This document shows, one piece after another, positions 4,426-54,036 of a stretch of DNA of 64,000 nt. The notes under the pieces are model-generated. The model saw only the letters and a list, made by a program, of their open reading frames with translations. It searched no databases and was not told where the DNA came from. This stretch comes from Bryobacterales bacterium (lineage in GTDB: Bacteria > Acidobacteriota > Terriglobia > Bryobacterales > UBA6623): NCBI GenBank assembly GCA_028819235.1, contig JAPPMC010000097.1, positions 8,635 to 72,634 of the forward strand, read 5' to 3'. Position 1 is the first letter of the stretch. Every line of letters starts with the position of its first letter. Position numbers and translations under genes: made by a program.

Positions 4426-5114
4426 CCGTGGCGGACGACGGGGCAGCGCCCCTAGGACTCCCGGCCAAGGGGTTCTTTCTGAGCCTTGAGGGGATTGACG
4501 GCTGCGGCAAGACTACGCAGGTCCGGCTGCTGACGGAAAGGCTGTCCCGCGAAGGCCTCGAGCCCCTAATGGCGCGAGAACCGGGCGGCACGCAGGTCGG
4601 TGATCTGGTGCGCGGCGTCCTGCTGGAGGCGCGCCAGCTCCAGATGCAGCCCTTGACGGAACTACTGCTGTTCTTTGCGTCTCGGGCTGAGAACGCGCAG
4701 CAGGTCATTCGGCCGGCGCTGCGGGACGGCCGGATCGTCGTCTGCGACCGCTTCACCGACGCGTCGGTCGCCTATCAGGGACACGGCCGCGGTTTGGGCG
4801 GAAAGTTGGTGGAGAGTCTGAAGACGCTGGTCTTGGGCGATCTCGAGCCGGACTTGACGATCTGGCTGGACATACCGGTGGGCACAGCGCTCGCGAGGGC
4901 TTTCGCACGGCTGGGAGACCAAGATCGCATGGAGTCGCTGGGGCCGGAATTCTTCCGGCGCGTCCGGGGAGGGTATGCCAAGATCGCGGCGGACAACCCC
5001 TCGCGCGTCCTGCGGATAGACGCCTCTGGGACTGCGAGCCACGTTGCCGACCGGGTCTACAAGGCTGTGGCGGCGGCACTGGACGCCCGGAACATGAGCG
5101 CAGCCCGGTCCTGA
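4413..5114 (+). CDS. tmk: Thymidylate kinase (dTMP kinase)
   Basis: Phosphorylates dTMP to dTDP with ATP in dTTP synthesis. The P-loop LEGIDGCGKTTQ lies near residue 24, the DRFTDASVAYQGHGRG segment (DR and substrate-binding region) near 110, and the LID-like DQDRMES near 169; the length of about 230 aa is slightly over the family average. No ATG start is available. Options are TTG at 4413, overlapping nagA by 13 bases and preceded by GGACGAG, or GTG at 4428, two bases after the nagA stop; the TTG version is reported. Its TGA overlaps the holB ATG (TGATG), so the two are probably translationally coupled. tmk-holB adjacency is common in bacteria. Confidence 0.92.
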   Translation: MGSLTVADDGAAPLGLPAKGFFLSLEGIDGCGKTTQVRLLTERLSREGLEPLMAREPGGTQVGDLVRGVLLEARQLQMQPLTELLLFFASRAENAQQVIRPALRDGRIVVCDRFTDASVAYQGHGRGLGGKLVESLKTLVLGDLEPDLTIWLDIPVGTALARAFARLGDQDRMESLGPEFFRRVRGGYAKIAADNPSRVLRIDASGTASHVADRVYKAVAAALDARNMSAARS

Positions 5115-6187
5115 TGCCTACTCCGAAACTGATCGGGCACAAGCGGATCAGACACTCGCTGTGGAGGATGGTCTCTGAGCGCCGCCTGCCCCAGACGCTG
5201 CTCTTCTGCGGTATGCGCGGCATTGGCAAGTGCACGCTGGCCAGGCACTTGGCCGCAGGCATCAATTGCCAATCCGGGCCCGGCCAGCCATGCGGTGACT
5301 GCAGCCCGTGCCGGCGAATCCTAGCGACCGACCCATCCGCCGAGCAATTCCTGAAGCAAATCGAGGAACGCAAGAAACTGACTGCGGCGCAGCGCAAGCA
5401 GATGCCGCTCCTGATCGCGATCCACCCCGACGTGCTCATCTTCCCGCCGGACGGCCCGTCCCAACTGATCGCGATCGACCAGGCCCGCTATCTGCGAGAG
5501 CAGGCCCGTTTGGCGCCTGCCGAGGGCCGTCAGAGGATCTTCATCCTGACCCACGCCGACAGGGCCACTGAACCGGCATCCAATGCGCTTCTGAAGACGC
5601 TCGAGGAGCCCGTTCCGTCCCTGACGCTCGTGCTGACCTCGGAGAATCCGCACCACCTGCTGCCGACCATCCGCTCCCGTGCGATCCCCTTCCACTTCTC
5701 GCCGCTGACCAAGGACCAGATGCGCCGGTTTCTTGCGACATATGGGGACATCCCGCCGGACAGGCGGGACTTGGCGGCATCTTGGTCCGAGGGAAGCCCG
5801 GGCGCGGCGTTGAGGCTGGACATGAACGAGTTCCGGGCTCGGCGCGAAGCGATGCTCGCCGTGATCGAGACCGGCCTTCGGCGGGGACAGTTCGGCAGGC
5901 TGTCGGGCCAGCTCGCCGCGCTTGGGCGGGGCGATGCGAGCAGGATTGAACGGCTGGCAGCGATGCTCTGGTCCCTGCTCCGAGACCTGACGAGAATCCA
6001 GTTCGCGGAGGGGCGGGACATGGTTCACGCGGACATCGCGACCACTCTCGAAACGCTAGCAAAGCAAGTCACCGTGGATTGGCTGCAGCGGGCCGTAGTG
6101 CAGCTGCAGGAGGTTGAGAGCCTTGAGCGCTACAACGTCCAGCGGCAGATTGCGCTGGAAGCCTACGCGCTGGGCCTTCGGACCTGA
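5114..6187 (+). CDS. holB: DNA polymerase III subunit delta'
   Basis: An AAA+ clamp-loader subunit that, with delta and gamma/tau, loads the beta sliding clamp. The N-terminal Walker A-like motif GMRGIGKCT lies near residue 33. It is followed by a zinc-binding cysteine group (INCQSGPGQPCGDCSPC, about 51-67). The sensor-type segment LLKTLEEPVPSLTLVLTSEN near 158 and TIRSRA near 184 are characteristic of DnaX/HolB proteins. The zinc module and the absence of a tau-like extension favour delta' over DnaX. Length is 357 aa. The start overlaps the tmk stop by one base. The region before the next gene (6188-6316) shows no feature other than that gene's RBS. Confidence 0.88.
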   Translation: MPTPKLIGHKRIRHSLWRMVSERRLPQTLLFCGMRGIGKCTLARHLAAGINCQSGPGQPCGDCSPCRRILATDPSAEQFLKQIEERKKLTAAQRKQMPLLIAIHPDVLIFPPDGPSQLIAIDQARYLREQARLAPAEGRQRIFILTHADRATEPASNALLKTLEEPVPSLTLVLTSENPHHLLPTIRSRAIPFHFSPLTKDQMRRFLATYGDIPPDRRDLAASWSEGSPGAALRLDMNEFRARREAMLAVIETGLRRGQFGRLSGQLAALGRGDASRIERLAAMLWSLLRDLTRIQFAEGRDMVHADIATTLETLAKQVTVDWLQRAVVQLQEVESLERYNVQRQIALEAYALGLRT

Positions 6188-6300
6188 CAGCTGCCCAAGA
6201 GTGCGGACTGACGGACTCCCCGTCGCGGCAGGCGGAACGAACACTTGGCGCTGATCGTCCAAAGAATCGGCGACTGGAGCCATCGGCCCGTAGACTGAGA

Positions 6301-50085: not shown

Positions 50086-50225
50086 CCATCGCAGAACAAT
50101 AGCGATCGCGCTAGGGGAACAAGTCACGGCCCGTCCACCGAAGGCCCATTCCTCAGGCCAAGCCGTTGTCTTTGGTGGCGATAGTGGCATCCGACCTCGC
50201 GCGATGCTCTGGCGGTTTGGTCTCT

Positions 50226-50655
50226 GCGCGGGAGCCACTCGTAGAGTGTTGAGACGTGGATGTCGATGATCTGGGCGATCTCGCCACCGGGGCATCTTCT
50301 TATCGCGCAGAATGGCCTGCAACTCTGGACGTGCCCGGGATCTAAGGAACGGCGACCCGTCCCCCCAGCTTCCCCGGAGATGTTGCGCGGTGAGCTTGGT
50401 GCGCTCCCGTTCCACATCCAATGGCATTCGTTTAGGGATGGAAGTGAGTTCGGTTAAGCGCCGCCGGATGGCGTCAAGACGGGGCGCGATTCAGTCCGCG
50501 ATCGGGGGATCTGTGGGCTTGCGATTCCTCCGTATCGTGCTCCGGCGGCGGGCCCGGCGCGGGTAGGACCGGTCAGGCCGCTCCAGGACGCGGATTTGGG
50601 CCTCGGGGTTCTGGTCGACCGTGCTCACGTGCGCGTATCCAACCTCGCTTCGCCA
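50226..50655 (-). pseudogene. Serine resolvase/invertase relic
   Basis: Reading on the minus strand from about 50646, EVGYAHVSTVDQNPEAQIRVLE matches the resolvase N-terminus (GYARVSTxDQNxxxQ) with the catalytic-serine strand. After a stop (near 50491) the same frame gives RMPLDVERERTKLTAQHLRG, similar to the recombinase end of the catalytic domain (ERTKxG). A frameshift then leads to PGGEIAQIIDIHVSTLYEWL, the C-terminal helix-turn-helix. Most of the catalytic core is missing, so the gene is dead. It marks an old mobile-element insertion next to the two-gene accessory module. Confidence 0.6.
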
Positions 50656-50816
50656 GTATTGCCCCCTCCCCGAAGGATAGGTGCGCACCGGCGGCAAGGC
50701 GATCGGCAATGTCAATGGGCCCGCCCTAGATCGGCTTGTGGGCACGCCCAGGACCGTGGCCGAGAGGGCCCATTCGGACGCGGTGCTGTTGGCGGGAGCG
50801 AATTACAATCCAGTCA

Positions 50817-51482
50817 GTGGAAGCCATTCGACAGTCCCAATACGGGCAAGGCCATCGCGGTTCACGCTTTGAACGTCCTAAAATCGTGCTGGCCGCCATG
50901 GCCGCCGGCGGGAAAGCAGCGCGGTTCAGCGACGTTCAAATCGAGAACCTCCTGCTACTGGCTGACCGCGAGGCAGCGGACGGGACGGGCGGGCCGCACT
51001 TCGCATTCCAGCCTGGCCCTCACGGGCCATCCGACCCTGCGGTCCTAGAGACCGTCAAGGCACTGGCCGCCGAAGGTTGGGCAGTCATCGATGACGCGGG
51101 GCCGCACTGGGTGTGCTTCGCAAGTCGGGAGGGCTTTGCAAGTGGTGCGAAGACGCTTGCGCGGATGAAACGCGCTGCGCGGCGCTACCTGGCAAGGGCG
51201 GCCCGGTGGATCCTGACCCAGCCGCATGGGGCGATCATGGCGGGAATCTTAGGACGCTACCCAGACTTGGCGGTCAACAATCGGATCCCCCGGGCTGCGC
51301 TGCAGGATCCGGGGAGCGGCAGGATGCACCACCTTCTACGGGGCATAGCCAGCCTGGCAGGGATTCTGGCCGGCCAAGACCCCCGATCAGACTTGGAGGC
51401 TATGGAGAGCGATTGGTGGGCCTTTGGCAACGACATCAGGTGGGCCATCGAACACGCGAGCGTGGCTGACGGGCCACGATGA
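50817..51482 (+). CDS. Predicted winged-helix protein (SocA/Panacea-like pattern), first gene of accessory pair
   Basis: 221 aa from GTG 50817, kept because RPKIVLAAMAAGGKA looks like true N-terminal sequence; ATG 50898 would cut into it. The pattern SDVQIENLLLLADREA, HFAFQPGPHGPSDPAVLETV and LAAEGWAVID resembles the winged-helix-like fold of DUF4065/SocA (Panacea) and related proteins, where a helix, an aromatic GP turn and a following helix-strand are diagnostic. The C-terminal WILTQPHGAIMAGILGRYPDLAVN resembles a tail seen in uncharacterised relatives. This assignment is by eye and uncertain. Overlaps the following DUF2335 gene by 4 bases (ATGA). Confidence 0.5.
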   Translation: MEAIRQSQYGQGHRGSRFERPKIVLAAMAAGGKAARFSDVQIENLLLLADREAADGTGGPHFAFQPGPHGPSDPAVLETVKALAAEGWAVIDDAGPHWVCFASREGFASGAKTLARMKRAARRYLARAARWILTQPHGAIMAGILGRYPDLAVNNRIPRAALQDPGSGRMHHLLRGIASLAGILAGQDPRSDLEAMESDWWAFGNDIRWAIEHASVADGPR

Positions 51483-51952
51483 CCGGCGATGAGGTGCCAG
51501 CTGAAGGGGCGACCGAGCGCGATGGTGGCGGCGAACTGGAAGCTCGGGGACAGCCATCCAAGCCGGAGGCCGCCGAAGTCTTGGCGGTGCGAAGGGCTGC
51601 GTACCACGTCCAAGGGCCACTCCCGCCACCCTCCGTGCTGCGCGGGTACGACCAAGTTGTCAAAGGCGGGGTCGAGCGAATCTTCGCAATGGCAGAGCGC
51701 CAGGCAGCCCACCGCCAGCAGATCGAGTCCCGTGGGCAGATCGTGGGGTTCAGCCTCGCCGCTACCTCGCCAGCCGGAGCCTTTCTGGCAGTCGCGGTCG
51801 GCGTGCCGCTTGCCGGCGTGTCCGGAGTGATCCTCGCGATTGCGACCTTGAGCGGATTCTTCATCTGGGGCAAGGCGGGCCGCGCGAAGGGCATTCCGGC
51901 TGGCCGAATTGCGAGCAAGGACTCAACACCGCGCGGTCGGTTTGACGGCTAG
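51479..51952 (+). CDS. DUF2335 family small membrane protein
   Basis: 157 aa. A variable N-terminal tail is followed by the DUF2335 core: VQGPLPPPSVLRGYDQVVKG, ERIFAMAERQAAHRQQIES, then two hydrophobic segments (VGFSLAATSPAGAFLAVAVG and GVSGVILAIATLSGFFIW) separated by a short turn, and a basic cytoplasmic end. DUF2335 proteins are small two-helix inner-membrane proteins of unknown role, often in phage or plasmid contexts. Start ATG 51479 lies inside the upstream stop, so translation is coupled to the winged-helix-like gene. The pairing of a putative DNA-binding protein with a small membrane protein is compatible with a toxin-antitoxin or stress unit, which is inference. Confidence 0.7.
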   Translation: MTGDEVPAEGATERDGGGELEARGQPSKPEAAEVLAVRRAAYHVQGPLPPPSVLRGYDQVVKGGVERIFAMAERQAAHRQQIESRGQIVGFSLAATSPAGAFLAVAVGVPLAGVSGVILAIATLSGFFIWGKAGRAKGIPAGRIASKDSTPRGRFDG

Positions 51953-52440
51953 GCCAGTTGCCAAGAGGCCCACCTTCGGGACGGTCCCCGGCGCGGTCTG
52001 TCCAGTGCATTGAGGCATGCACGGTCAGGCACAGCGATGAGGGAAGCAGACCGCTGCGGGGAGTCTCCGAAGTAGTGCTGAACGATGTTCGGCTGGCCCC
52101 CGACAAGGCCGAGCCAATCTGTGAAGAGCCTCAAGGATGTGGACCGCCAGTACGATCGCACAATGTCCGCAAGACGATCTGGCGGGGCCGGTGTGATGAG
52201 GACTATGGGAGCTCAGGAGCCAGACTTGTTTGAGCGCTCAGCGAGCCGCTCTACAGGACTGAATGCCACCGAGTGGGTTCCCGCCATCTTGGTGGAGCCT
52301 AGTGAACTTCGGTCACCGATGGGTCCCAAGATTCGGGGCGATCCAGAGCAACCTACCAAGGTGCTGGCCCTCGGGCTGACCCTCGAGCCACAGAAAACGC
52401 GTGGGCCAGCGCGAGCGGTGAAGAGGATCGCAGAGCGTCG
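51953..52440. other. Intergenic region, no gene supported
   Basis: 488 bases between the DUF2335 gene and the converging quinoprotein gene. An open + strand frame (from 52085) crosses into the quinoprotein antisense and is not credible. No terminator or RNA feature recognised. Confidence 0.35.
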
Positions 52441-54036
52441 TCAGGGCCGATTCGGCGGAGAGTGCAGGCCAAAGGCGAAGATACCGTTCTTGGAGGCGAT
52501 CGCGACGAACTGCCGACCACCGTGCGCGAATGTCATGGGCGAAGCGCGAATCGTGCCCCCCGTGTTGAAGTGCCACAGAACGGCTCCCGTGCCCGCGTCC
52601 GCGGCCACGAAATTCCCAACCCTGCTGGAGAAGAACACTAGCCCTCCCGCGGTGGTCATCGTGCCGGCGTGGCTGATCTCTTGGGCCTCGTCCCCCAAGA
52701 ACGGAATTTCCCAGCGCAGCGAGCCGTCCCGGTAGTCAATTGCCCGGACGAACTGCCTAGCCCCACCGGCAAGGTCGTGATCGATGCTGTGGCCGGTGCG
52801 GTAGTAAATCCCACAACTGTCCCGGGCAACGACATAGAAGAGACCGGAGGGTGGATTGAACGACGGAGCGTGCCAATTCGTTCCTCCATGGATGTCCGGG
52901 CAAGCATGGGCTCCTTGGAGGGACGGTGCTGCTTCGGGGATCAGGATTGGCCTTCCGTCTCGAGAGATGCGCTCCGCCCAGGTCTGCTTGGCGAAGGGCT
53001 CGCCGAGTAGGAACTCGCCGGTGACGCGGTCGAGCACGTAGAAGAACGCGTTCCGGTTGGCCTGCAGCAGAAGCTTCCTCGGCTGGCCTCTCCACGCGGC
53101 GTCCACTAGCACTGGAGTCTCGTTGGCGTCCCAGTCGTGCTCGTCGTGCGGTGTGAACTGGTAGTGCCAGACGAGTTTGCCATCGTCCGGGCGCAGGGCA
53201 ATCACGGACGCCGAATAGAGATTGTCGCCCTCTCGGTCGCGGCCATCGAAGTCCTTGGGCCCGGGATTCCCGGTCGGCCAATAGATCAGGTCCAGTTCGG
53301 GGTCATACGTACCCGTGATCCACGTCGCCGCTCCCCCGCCCTTCCAAACGTCCGTGTCTGGCCAAGTCTCAGATCCGGGCTCGCCAGGGCCAGGGACGGT
53401 ATAGAATCTCCATGCCCGCTGGCCCGTCTCTGAATCGAAGGCGTCAAGAAACCCCCGCAGACGCCCGCTGTCGCCCCCGCGGACACCAATCAAGACCCTA
53501 TTGCGGACCACTAGCGGAGCCGACGTGGCCCCGAAGCAAGGCTGGCTCACAGTAATCGCAGACTTCCACAAGAAGGCGCCTGTCCGAGCGTCCAAGGACA
53601 GCAGATGGCAGTCGACCGTGCCCATGTACAGCCGCTGCCCGGAGATAGCGAAACCGCGGTTCCAGTTTGGAGGCCGCCTGTCCCCGGGGCCCTCGAACGG
53701 GTAGTCGAAACGCCAGAGAGCCCGGCCAGTCGTGGCATCGATCGCGACGGCCATCGTCCCCCCGGCAGTCGCGTACATCACACCGTCCCTGACAAGCGGG
53801 GTGACCTCGGAGCGGAGGGGAACTGGATGAAACTGGTGAACCCATTTGACGACCAGATCTCCGATGTTCTTGGCGTTGATCTGGTCGAGAGGGCTGTAGC
53901 GCTGTCCGGTGTTGTCGCGATCGTAGCTCAGCCAGTTGTGCGCTGACTTGTGACGGTCCTCTCGAACCGCGCCATCGAAGCCGTCCGCGACGACCGGAGC
54001 AGCCGCTATCAAGACCGCGGCCAACGATGTTCGCAT
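52441..54036 (-). CDS. PQQ-dependent alcohol-dehydrogenase-type quinoprotein
   Basis: 531 aa from ATG 54036, where a Sec signal begins (MRTSLAAVLIAAAPVVADG). A longer form could start at ATG 54297, which overlaps the cytochrome stop (TGATG), but its first 87 residues look non-coding. It has the eight-bladed PQQ propeller: WLSYDRDNTGQRYSPLDQI, repeated tryptophan-docking motifs (AIDATTGRALWRFDYP, SLDARTGAFLWKS, AFDSETGQRAWRFYTVPG), APLVVRNRVLIGVRGGDSG, YWPTGNPGPKDFDG, LVWHYQFTPHDEHDWDANET and HGGTNWHAPSFNPPSG. Oxidises an alcohol or related substrate in the periplasm, passing electrons to the cytochrome encoded just upstream. Confidence 0.87.
   Translation of the reverse strand: MRTSLAAVLIAAAPVVADGFDGAVREDRHKSAHNWLSYDRDNTGQRYSPLDQINAKNIGDLVVKWVHQFHPVPLRSEVTPLVRDGVMYATAGGTMAVAIDATTGRALWRFDYPFEGPGDRRPPNWNRGFAISGQRLYMGTVDCHLLSLDARTGAFLWKSAITVSQPCFGATSAPLVVRNRVLIGVRGGDSGRLRGFLDAFDSETGQRAWRFYTVPGPGEPGSETWPDTDVWKGGGAATWITGTYDPELDLIYWPTGNPGPKDFDGRDREGDNLYSASVIALRPDDGKLVWHYQFTPHDEHDWDANETPVLVDAAWRGQPRKLLLQANRNAFFYVLDRVTGEFLLGEPFAKQTWAERISRDGRPILIPEAAPSLQGAHACPDIHGGTNWHAPSFNPPSGLFYVVARDSCGIYYRTGHSIDHDLAGGARQFVRAIDYRDGSLRWEIPFLGDEAQEISHAGTMTTAGGLVFFSSRVGNFVAADAGTGAVLWHFNTGGTIRASPMTFAHGGRQFVAIASKNGIFAFGLHSPPNRP

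Follow-up and report, generated by a model that had tools for sequence, protein, structure and literature searches.

What does a winged-helix protein do beside a small membrane protein of the family DUF2335, when both are encoded by overlapping genes next to the remains of a recombinase? Such a pair lies in the window analysed here, a stretch of 64,000 nucleotides from the genome of a Bryobacterales bacterium (G000, 7.2 Mb). A sequence-only reading had proposed a toxin-antitoxin or phage-defence unit, with a Panacea-like first protein. We found a conserved two-gene arrangement with a modular tail, a winged-helix domain that swaps partners, spread between phyla and an empty site in a same-genus genome.

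Gene structure and domain assignment

Gene 1 (50817..51482, plus strand) encoded a protein of 221 amino acids (aa), as supported by its reading frame, its relatives, a codon-position test and a structure model. Gene 2 (51479..51952, plus strand) encoded a DUF2335 (PF10097) membrane protein of 157 aa, assigned from Pfam, PHROG and a model. The genes were joined by an ATGA overlap, with the gene 2 start (ATG 51479) just before the end of gene 1 at 51482; in an ORF check, the coordinates and the overlap first proposed for the pair were correct. The start of gene 1 was uncertain: since the aligned start of its relatives fell on a TTT codon, either GTG 50817 or ATG 50898 must serve. In comparison with the nearest relative, differences by codon position were 0.39/0.35/0.58 for gene 1 and 0.27/0.25/0.51 for gene 2. 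This excess at the third position, which was absent in a shifted frame, indicated that both ORFs are real, selected coding sequences. An inverted repeat of 33 nt was located at 50859-50949, within the coding frame of gene 1.

The single ORF of gene 1 combined a SocA/Panacea-like winged-helix domain (residues 20-155; 50874..51281, plus strand) with a C-terminal DUF2335-partner tail (residues 169-221, ending ..SDWWAFGNDIRWAI..; 51321..51479, plus strand), which occurs elsewhere as a free protein of about 70 aa. The domain was delimited by pLDDT, Foldseek and a match to the SocA_Panacea profile. Its AlphaFold2 model was confident (pLDDT mostly >90 over residues 20-150) and confirmed the winged-helix protein seen in the sequence-only reading; the tail was modelled as two helices, with uncertainty.

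The relation to Panacea was more distant than that reading had suggested. A direct search of the gene 1 protein against Pfam, NCBIfam and PADLOC gave no match. At its curated cut-off, PF13274 (SocA_Panacea) matched neither the window protein nor anything else in the whole source genome. It was matched weakly by 20 of 35 gene 1 relatives, the best with an E value of 5.6e-5, below the Pfam cut-off. Profile-profile alignment (hhalign) of the gene 1 family with 18 true Panacea domains gave a probability of 91.5% (E 8.6e-7, 99 columns). The label "Panacea-like" probably holds as a distant relationship and fails as membership by the Pfam cut-off.

The structure comparison likewise returned the expected winged helix, with DarG rather than Panacea as its best match in the PDB. 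Foldseek placed two DarG chains from the M. tuberculosis DarTG complex at the top (E 2.4e-3, the C-terminal domain in 7yk3, and 3.0e-3; probability 1.00), followed mostly by generic winged helices. A search with the gene 1 sequence profile against the whole PDB ranked the same DarG chain second, at a non-significant E of 0.06, and the alignment spanned the same QKL...F.P..YGP region. The matched DarG domain has an antitoxin function: it blocks and neutralises its toxin (Deep et al. 2023, as listed in PMC12170906). We read the gene 1 domain as a distant relative of the Panacea and DarG antitoxin domains and a member of neither.

The assignment of gene 2 as a two-helix DUF2335 membrane protein stood. 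It matched PF10097 with E 2.3e-13 and 50 bits (cut-off 25), and PHROG 3996, a "moron" membrane protein, with E 2e-14. Alignment of the family revealed a conserved soluble motif, GPLPPPxxLxxYxxxxxGxxERIxxMAExQxxHRxxxE (51605..51730, plus strand). It is followed by a transmembrane helical hairpin (51734..51886, plus strand), predicted from hydropathy and AlphaFold2; the model contained two long helices (64-106 and 110-136) with two hydrophobic stretches. No structural match to the DUF2335 model was obtained in the PDB, which counts against a toxin-antitoxin-like reading. None of the PADLOC-DB 2.0.0 families (0) was matched by either protein of the pair.

Partners of the winged-helix domain and of the tail

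A scan of GTDB species genomes yielded 42 relatives of gene 1, from Acidobacteriota, Gemmatimonadota, Bacteroidota, Rhodothermota, Pseudomonadota, Chloroflexota and other phyla. The source genome had two further relatives, and few of the same-genus genomes had any. Gene 1 as a query found no match among viral and plasmid sequences. Several relatives were binned metagenome contigs, so single phylum placements may be binning errors.

The relatives fell into two architectures. Fourteen carried the tail, as in the window, and in 13 of these DUF2335 was the next gene; in the exception (L061), only the first codons of a DUF2335-like ORF preceded a stop. The recurrence of the linkage, which the sequence-only reading had proposed to survey, argues that the window pair did not arise by chance and defines a conserved two-gene unit. 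The other 28 relatives consisted of the winged-helix domain alone (~143 aa). In 21 of them an intact proteasome-like hydrolase gene followed at a spacing of -4 to +10 nt; PF00227 was matched with E 4.7e-10 by one hydrolase tested, and another scored just under the cut-off. The remainder comprised one gene followed by a membrane protein (L101) and six that were frameshifted, cut or unresolved. The winged-helix domain therefore swaps its partner together with the tail: DUF2335 with it, the hydrolase without it. It is the C-terminal tail, overlooked in the sequence-only reading, that tracks DUF2335, rather than the winged-helix domain.

A maximum-likelihood tree restricted to the domain placed the window and the 13 tail-bearing relatives included in one clade (support 98/96) that spanned five phyla. 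Since the tail-bearing forms are a single clade, the fusion to the tail probably arose once and then crossed phyla.

The tail itself had a far wider distribution. A class-wide profile search returned whole relatives and, apart from these, only ORFs of 72-90 aa, which resembled gene 1 in its 50 C-terminal residues and each lay directly upstream of DUF2335. Conversely, the ORFs 5' of DUF2335 genes found with Pfam in genomes of the class encoded the same small protein nearly everywhere. One such free-standing partner was tested against Pfam and had no match. A profile trained on 26 tails was then applied to loci outside the training set. It matched the ORF immediately preceding DUF2335, in some cases weakly, in 16 of 19 phage and plasmid loci (from Leptospira, Pseudomonas, Klebsiella, Escherichia, Enterobacter, Rahnella, Azospirillum, Staphylococcus, Lacticaseibacillus, Alteromonas and others). 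The three misses were Streptococcus and Lactococcus phages, in which a small overlapping ORF was also present at that position. Among 44 viral contigs, the directly upstream ORF was matched in 38 and two more were in-frame fusions. Off-target matches (E <0.1) were essentially absent among 11,050 and 3,914 ORFs. With profiles extended to phage tails, the partner was found upstream or fused in frame for 89 of 100 distinct DUF2335 sequences from all sources.

Exceptions occurred on both sides. When 399 genomes were searched with only the tail as query, 26 matches were obtained, 21 of them with DUF2335 next (one, L211, doubtful). Of the other five, two looked damaged and three looked like intact orphans. 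These three (L207, L210 and L216, at about 1500-1700; genomes G008 and G014) had no DUF2335 downstream, and are possibly orphan antitoxins or cases of loss of the membrane gene. Some DUF2335 genes were without a recognisable tail. Orphan tails and tail-less DUF2335 genes count against a toxin-antitoxin-like reading. In genome G007, two DUF2335 genes close to that of the window (L046, L052) stood behind unrelated membrane-protein ORFs, with no tail.

On two viral contigs (L152 and L154, 2680-3375), partner and DUF2335 formed one reading frame of 232 aa. The near-identical contigs L153 and L155-L158 had 32 nt fewer and encoded two proteins, so that the continuous frame results from this difference. 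The fusion only hints at contact between partner and DUF2335. The divergence of tail and DUF2335 was correlated (Mantel r 0.52, 75 pairs), as shared descent alone could make it; this agrees with a toxin-antitoxin-like unit, with co-evolution not separable from common descent. A profile comparison found no homology between tail and DUF2335, which ruled out the tail as a duplicated piece of the latter.

Several other arrangements were observed in the course of the survey. Many phyla had a ~143-aa SocA/Panacea-like winged-helix gene in tight coupling with a gene for a proteasome-like protein (Ntn hydrolase) (L070, L073, L075, L078, L081, L082, L084-L093, L095-L098 and L100; at about 5000-6200 in most). 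In a 2021 survey of newly found proteasome homologues, genomic context was reported to be uninformative (PMC8665760), so this pair may be a new lead. In L011, L014 and L021 (about 1000-2400), a related winged-helix domain was fused to a DUF488-looking region (IGYEGR...LCDVRRNAISRKYGF). Directly after other winged-helix genes of this type came genes for unrelated membrane proteins, some 195-205 aa long, in L012 (632-1788, minus strand), L017 (575-1700, minus strand) and L101 (4959-6061). The source genome carried the pair a second time (L002, 377-3563, minus strand), with an intact gene 1 and a DUF2335 gene broken by a stop or frameshift; an XRE plus ImmA/IrrE-like gene lay upstream.

Mobility and genomic setting

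The recombinase relic noted next to the pair proved real. It was a frameshifted serine recombinase (resolvase) at 50200..50745 on the minus strand, divergent from gene 1, with an N-terminal piece (GYAHVSTVDQNPEAQIRVLE) and a helix-turn-helix (HTH) piece in different minus-strand frames. L003 and L005 had similar recombinase pieces next to their gene 1 relatives, as did L052 close to its DUF2335 copy.

Comparison of flanking genes with the same-genus genome G008 revealed an empty site. The two flanking genes were approximately 50 bp apart in G008, and in the window they enclosed about 2,370 bp with the relic and the pair (50092..52461 missing from G008). Given the recombinase relic, gain in the window is likelier than loss in G008, although loss is possible. 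The empty site, the five-phylum clade and the plasmid and phage copies together bear out the mobility of the pair.

The neighbours of the pair in the window were metabolic genes, with no defence island, which counts against a toxin-antitoxin-like or abortive-infection reading. In a scan without a fair control, some restriction-modification and other defence genes were found in the flanks of 13 relatives and hardly any in the window. That restriction-modification genes lie near only some relatives also counts against a toxin-antitoxin-like reading. Restriction-modification-like genes were present within 5 kb of two pair relatives (L064, 94-4943; L065, 3-1607). By size and motifs only, their ORFs were assigned as type IIG-like, type III methyltransferase-like and possibly DUF5131.

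Readings of the pair and comparison with known systems

Partner-first overlapping order, near-obligate linkage, natural fusion, mobility and a fused domain of antitoxin type led us to favour a toxin-antitoxin-like unit; the placement of phage copies among accessory genes also speaks for it. With an evenly balanced chance of being right, we propose that the pair is a mobile unit of this kind (abortive-infection-like) in which the tail restrains DUF2335; its toxicity, binding, sensing and phage defence are presumed. DUF2335 would be the effector, with a conserved soluble helix preceding a membrane hairpin, and if unrestrained it may harm the inner membrane or depolarise it. Its short partner, represented in the window by the ~55 C-terminal residues of gene 1, would bind and restrain it, and translational coupling would ensure that the two are co-produced. 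The fused SocA/Panacea/DarG-CTD-like domain would most likely add sensing or stability control. This winged-helix domain is best viewed as an optional add-on that may detect a trigger, a role put forward for Panacea (PMC10440598).

The wider proposal, which we consider to have about equal prospects of holding and failing, is that DUF2335 and its ~70-aa partner are a new, widespread family of phage- and plasmid-borne toxin-antitoxin or abortive-infection systems. The window would then contain a sensor-fused variant, with a SocA/DarG-type domain grafted onto the partner.

Three other explanations were weighed. The strongest of them, which we nevertheless consider rather unlikely, is that the pair acts as a superinfection-exclusion or moron membrane unit: DUF2335 would block the entry of other phages while remaining harmless to the host, with the tail serving as its chaperone or subunit. 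Two observations speak for it: PHROG 3996 is classified as a moron, and temperate phages infecting Leptospira, Pseudomonas, Staphylococcus, Streptococcus and Lactococcus carry the pair at accessory-gene positions. Those of Streptococcus and Lactococcus have it downstream of the lysin, whereas Pseudomonas phage MD8 and Staphylococcus phage IME-SA4 have it next to the integrase. However, the pair also occurs on plasmids and on chromosomes without an obvious prophage, the window included, and the partner-first overlap and the fusion to an antitoxin-type domain fit a toxin-antitoxin system better.

It is improbable that DUF2335 serves as a membrane anchor which, via the tail, tethers a DNA-binding winged-helix protein to control transcription, with neither protein a toxin. 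The winged-helix fold of gene 1 and the tail that tracks DUF2335 would suit such a regulator, but most partners are the tail only, without a DNA-binding domain, and elsewhere the winged-helix domain is paired with a proteasome-like hydrolase. A holin-like or pinholin-like lysis accessory, with the tail as antiholin, has very little likelihood: the two-helix hairpin, the faint similarity of one phage copy to holins (E 0.003, short of the cut-off) and the position downstream of the lysin in Firmicutes phages speak for it, whereas those phages carry their own annotated holins, copies in other phages are found next to the integrase or ahead of the tape-measure gene, and the pair is widespread in non-phage loci.

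DUF2335 (PF10097, PHROG 3996), of which gene 2 is a clear member, is a family without a described function. It was essentially absent from the literature covered by a full-text search, which found no study of its function. A table of PMC6267618 lists a DUF2335 "phospholipase", probably in error for DUF2235. For a family that ranges from Leptospira to Lactococcus phages, a near-obligate small partner means that the orphan membrane protein can be tested as one half of a two-gene unit.

The pair shares with type II toxin-antitoxin systems two small overlapping genes in a conserved arrangement and horizontal mobility. RosmerTA and other membrane-depolarising toxin-antitoxin systems likewise have a small membrane protein beside an antitoxin gene, in phages, but belong to different protein families. 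The staphylococcal prophage protein PdpSau, although at a similar phage position, is a different protein with a single helix. DarG antitoxins have a macrodomain and a C-terminal DarT-binding domain and are encoded beside DarT. The DarG C-terminal domain was the best structural match of gene 1, which has only this fold, without the macrodomain, and whose partner is DUF2335 and not the DarT ADP-ribosyltransferase.

The Panacea/SocA antitoxins (PF13274; PanAT, PMC8832971; NetFlax, PMC10440598) resemble the pair in a related domain profile and an overlapping two-gene unit, and in a single domain with changing partners, some of them membrane-active. In the passages covered, the main texts on PanAT and NetFlax contained no sign of the DUF2335 pair. 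Experimental precedent is reported within PMC8832971 for Panacea antitoxins that neutralise membrane-depolarising toxins. Unlike these, the gene 1 family scores below the Pfam cut-off, and its pairing is accompanied by an extra tail, which also occurs as a protein of its own. The fused variant suggests that an antitoxin-type domain changes partner by taking on, as its tail, the partner that the new effector already had. Such acquisition of a tail, instead of a re-evolved surface, is a testable route to the partner promiscuity of Panacea-type antitoxins.
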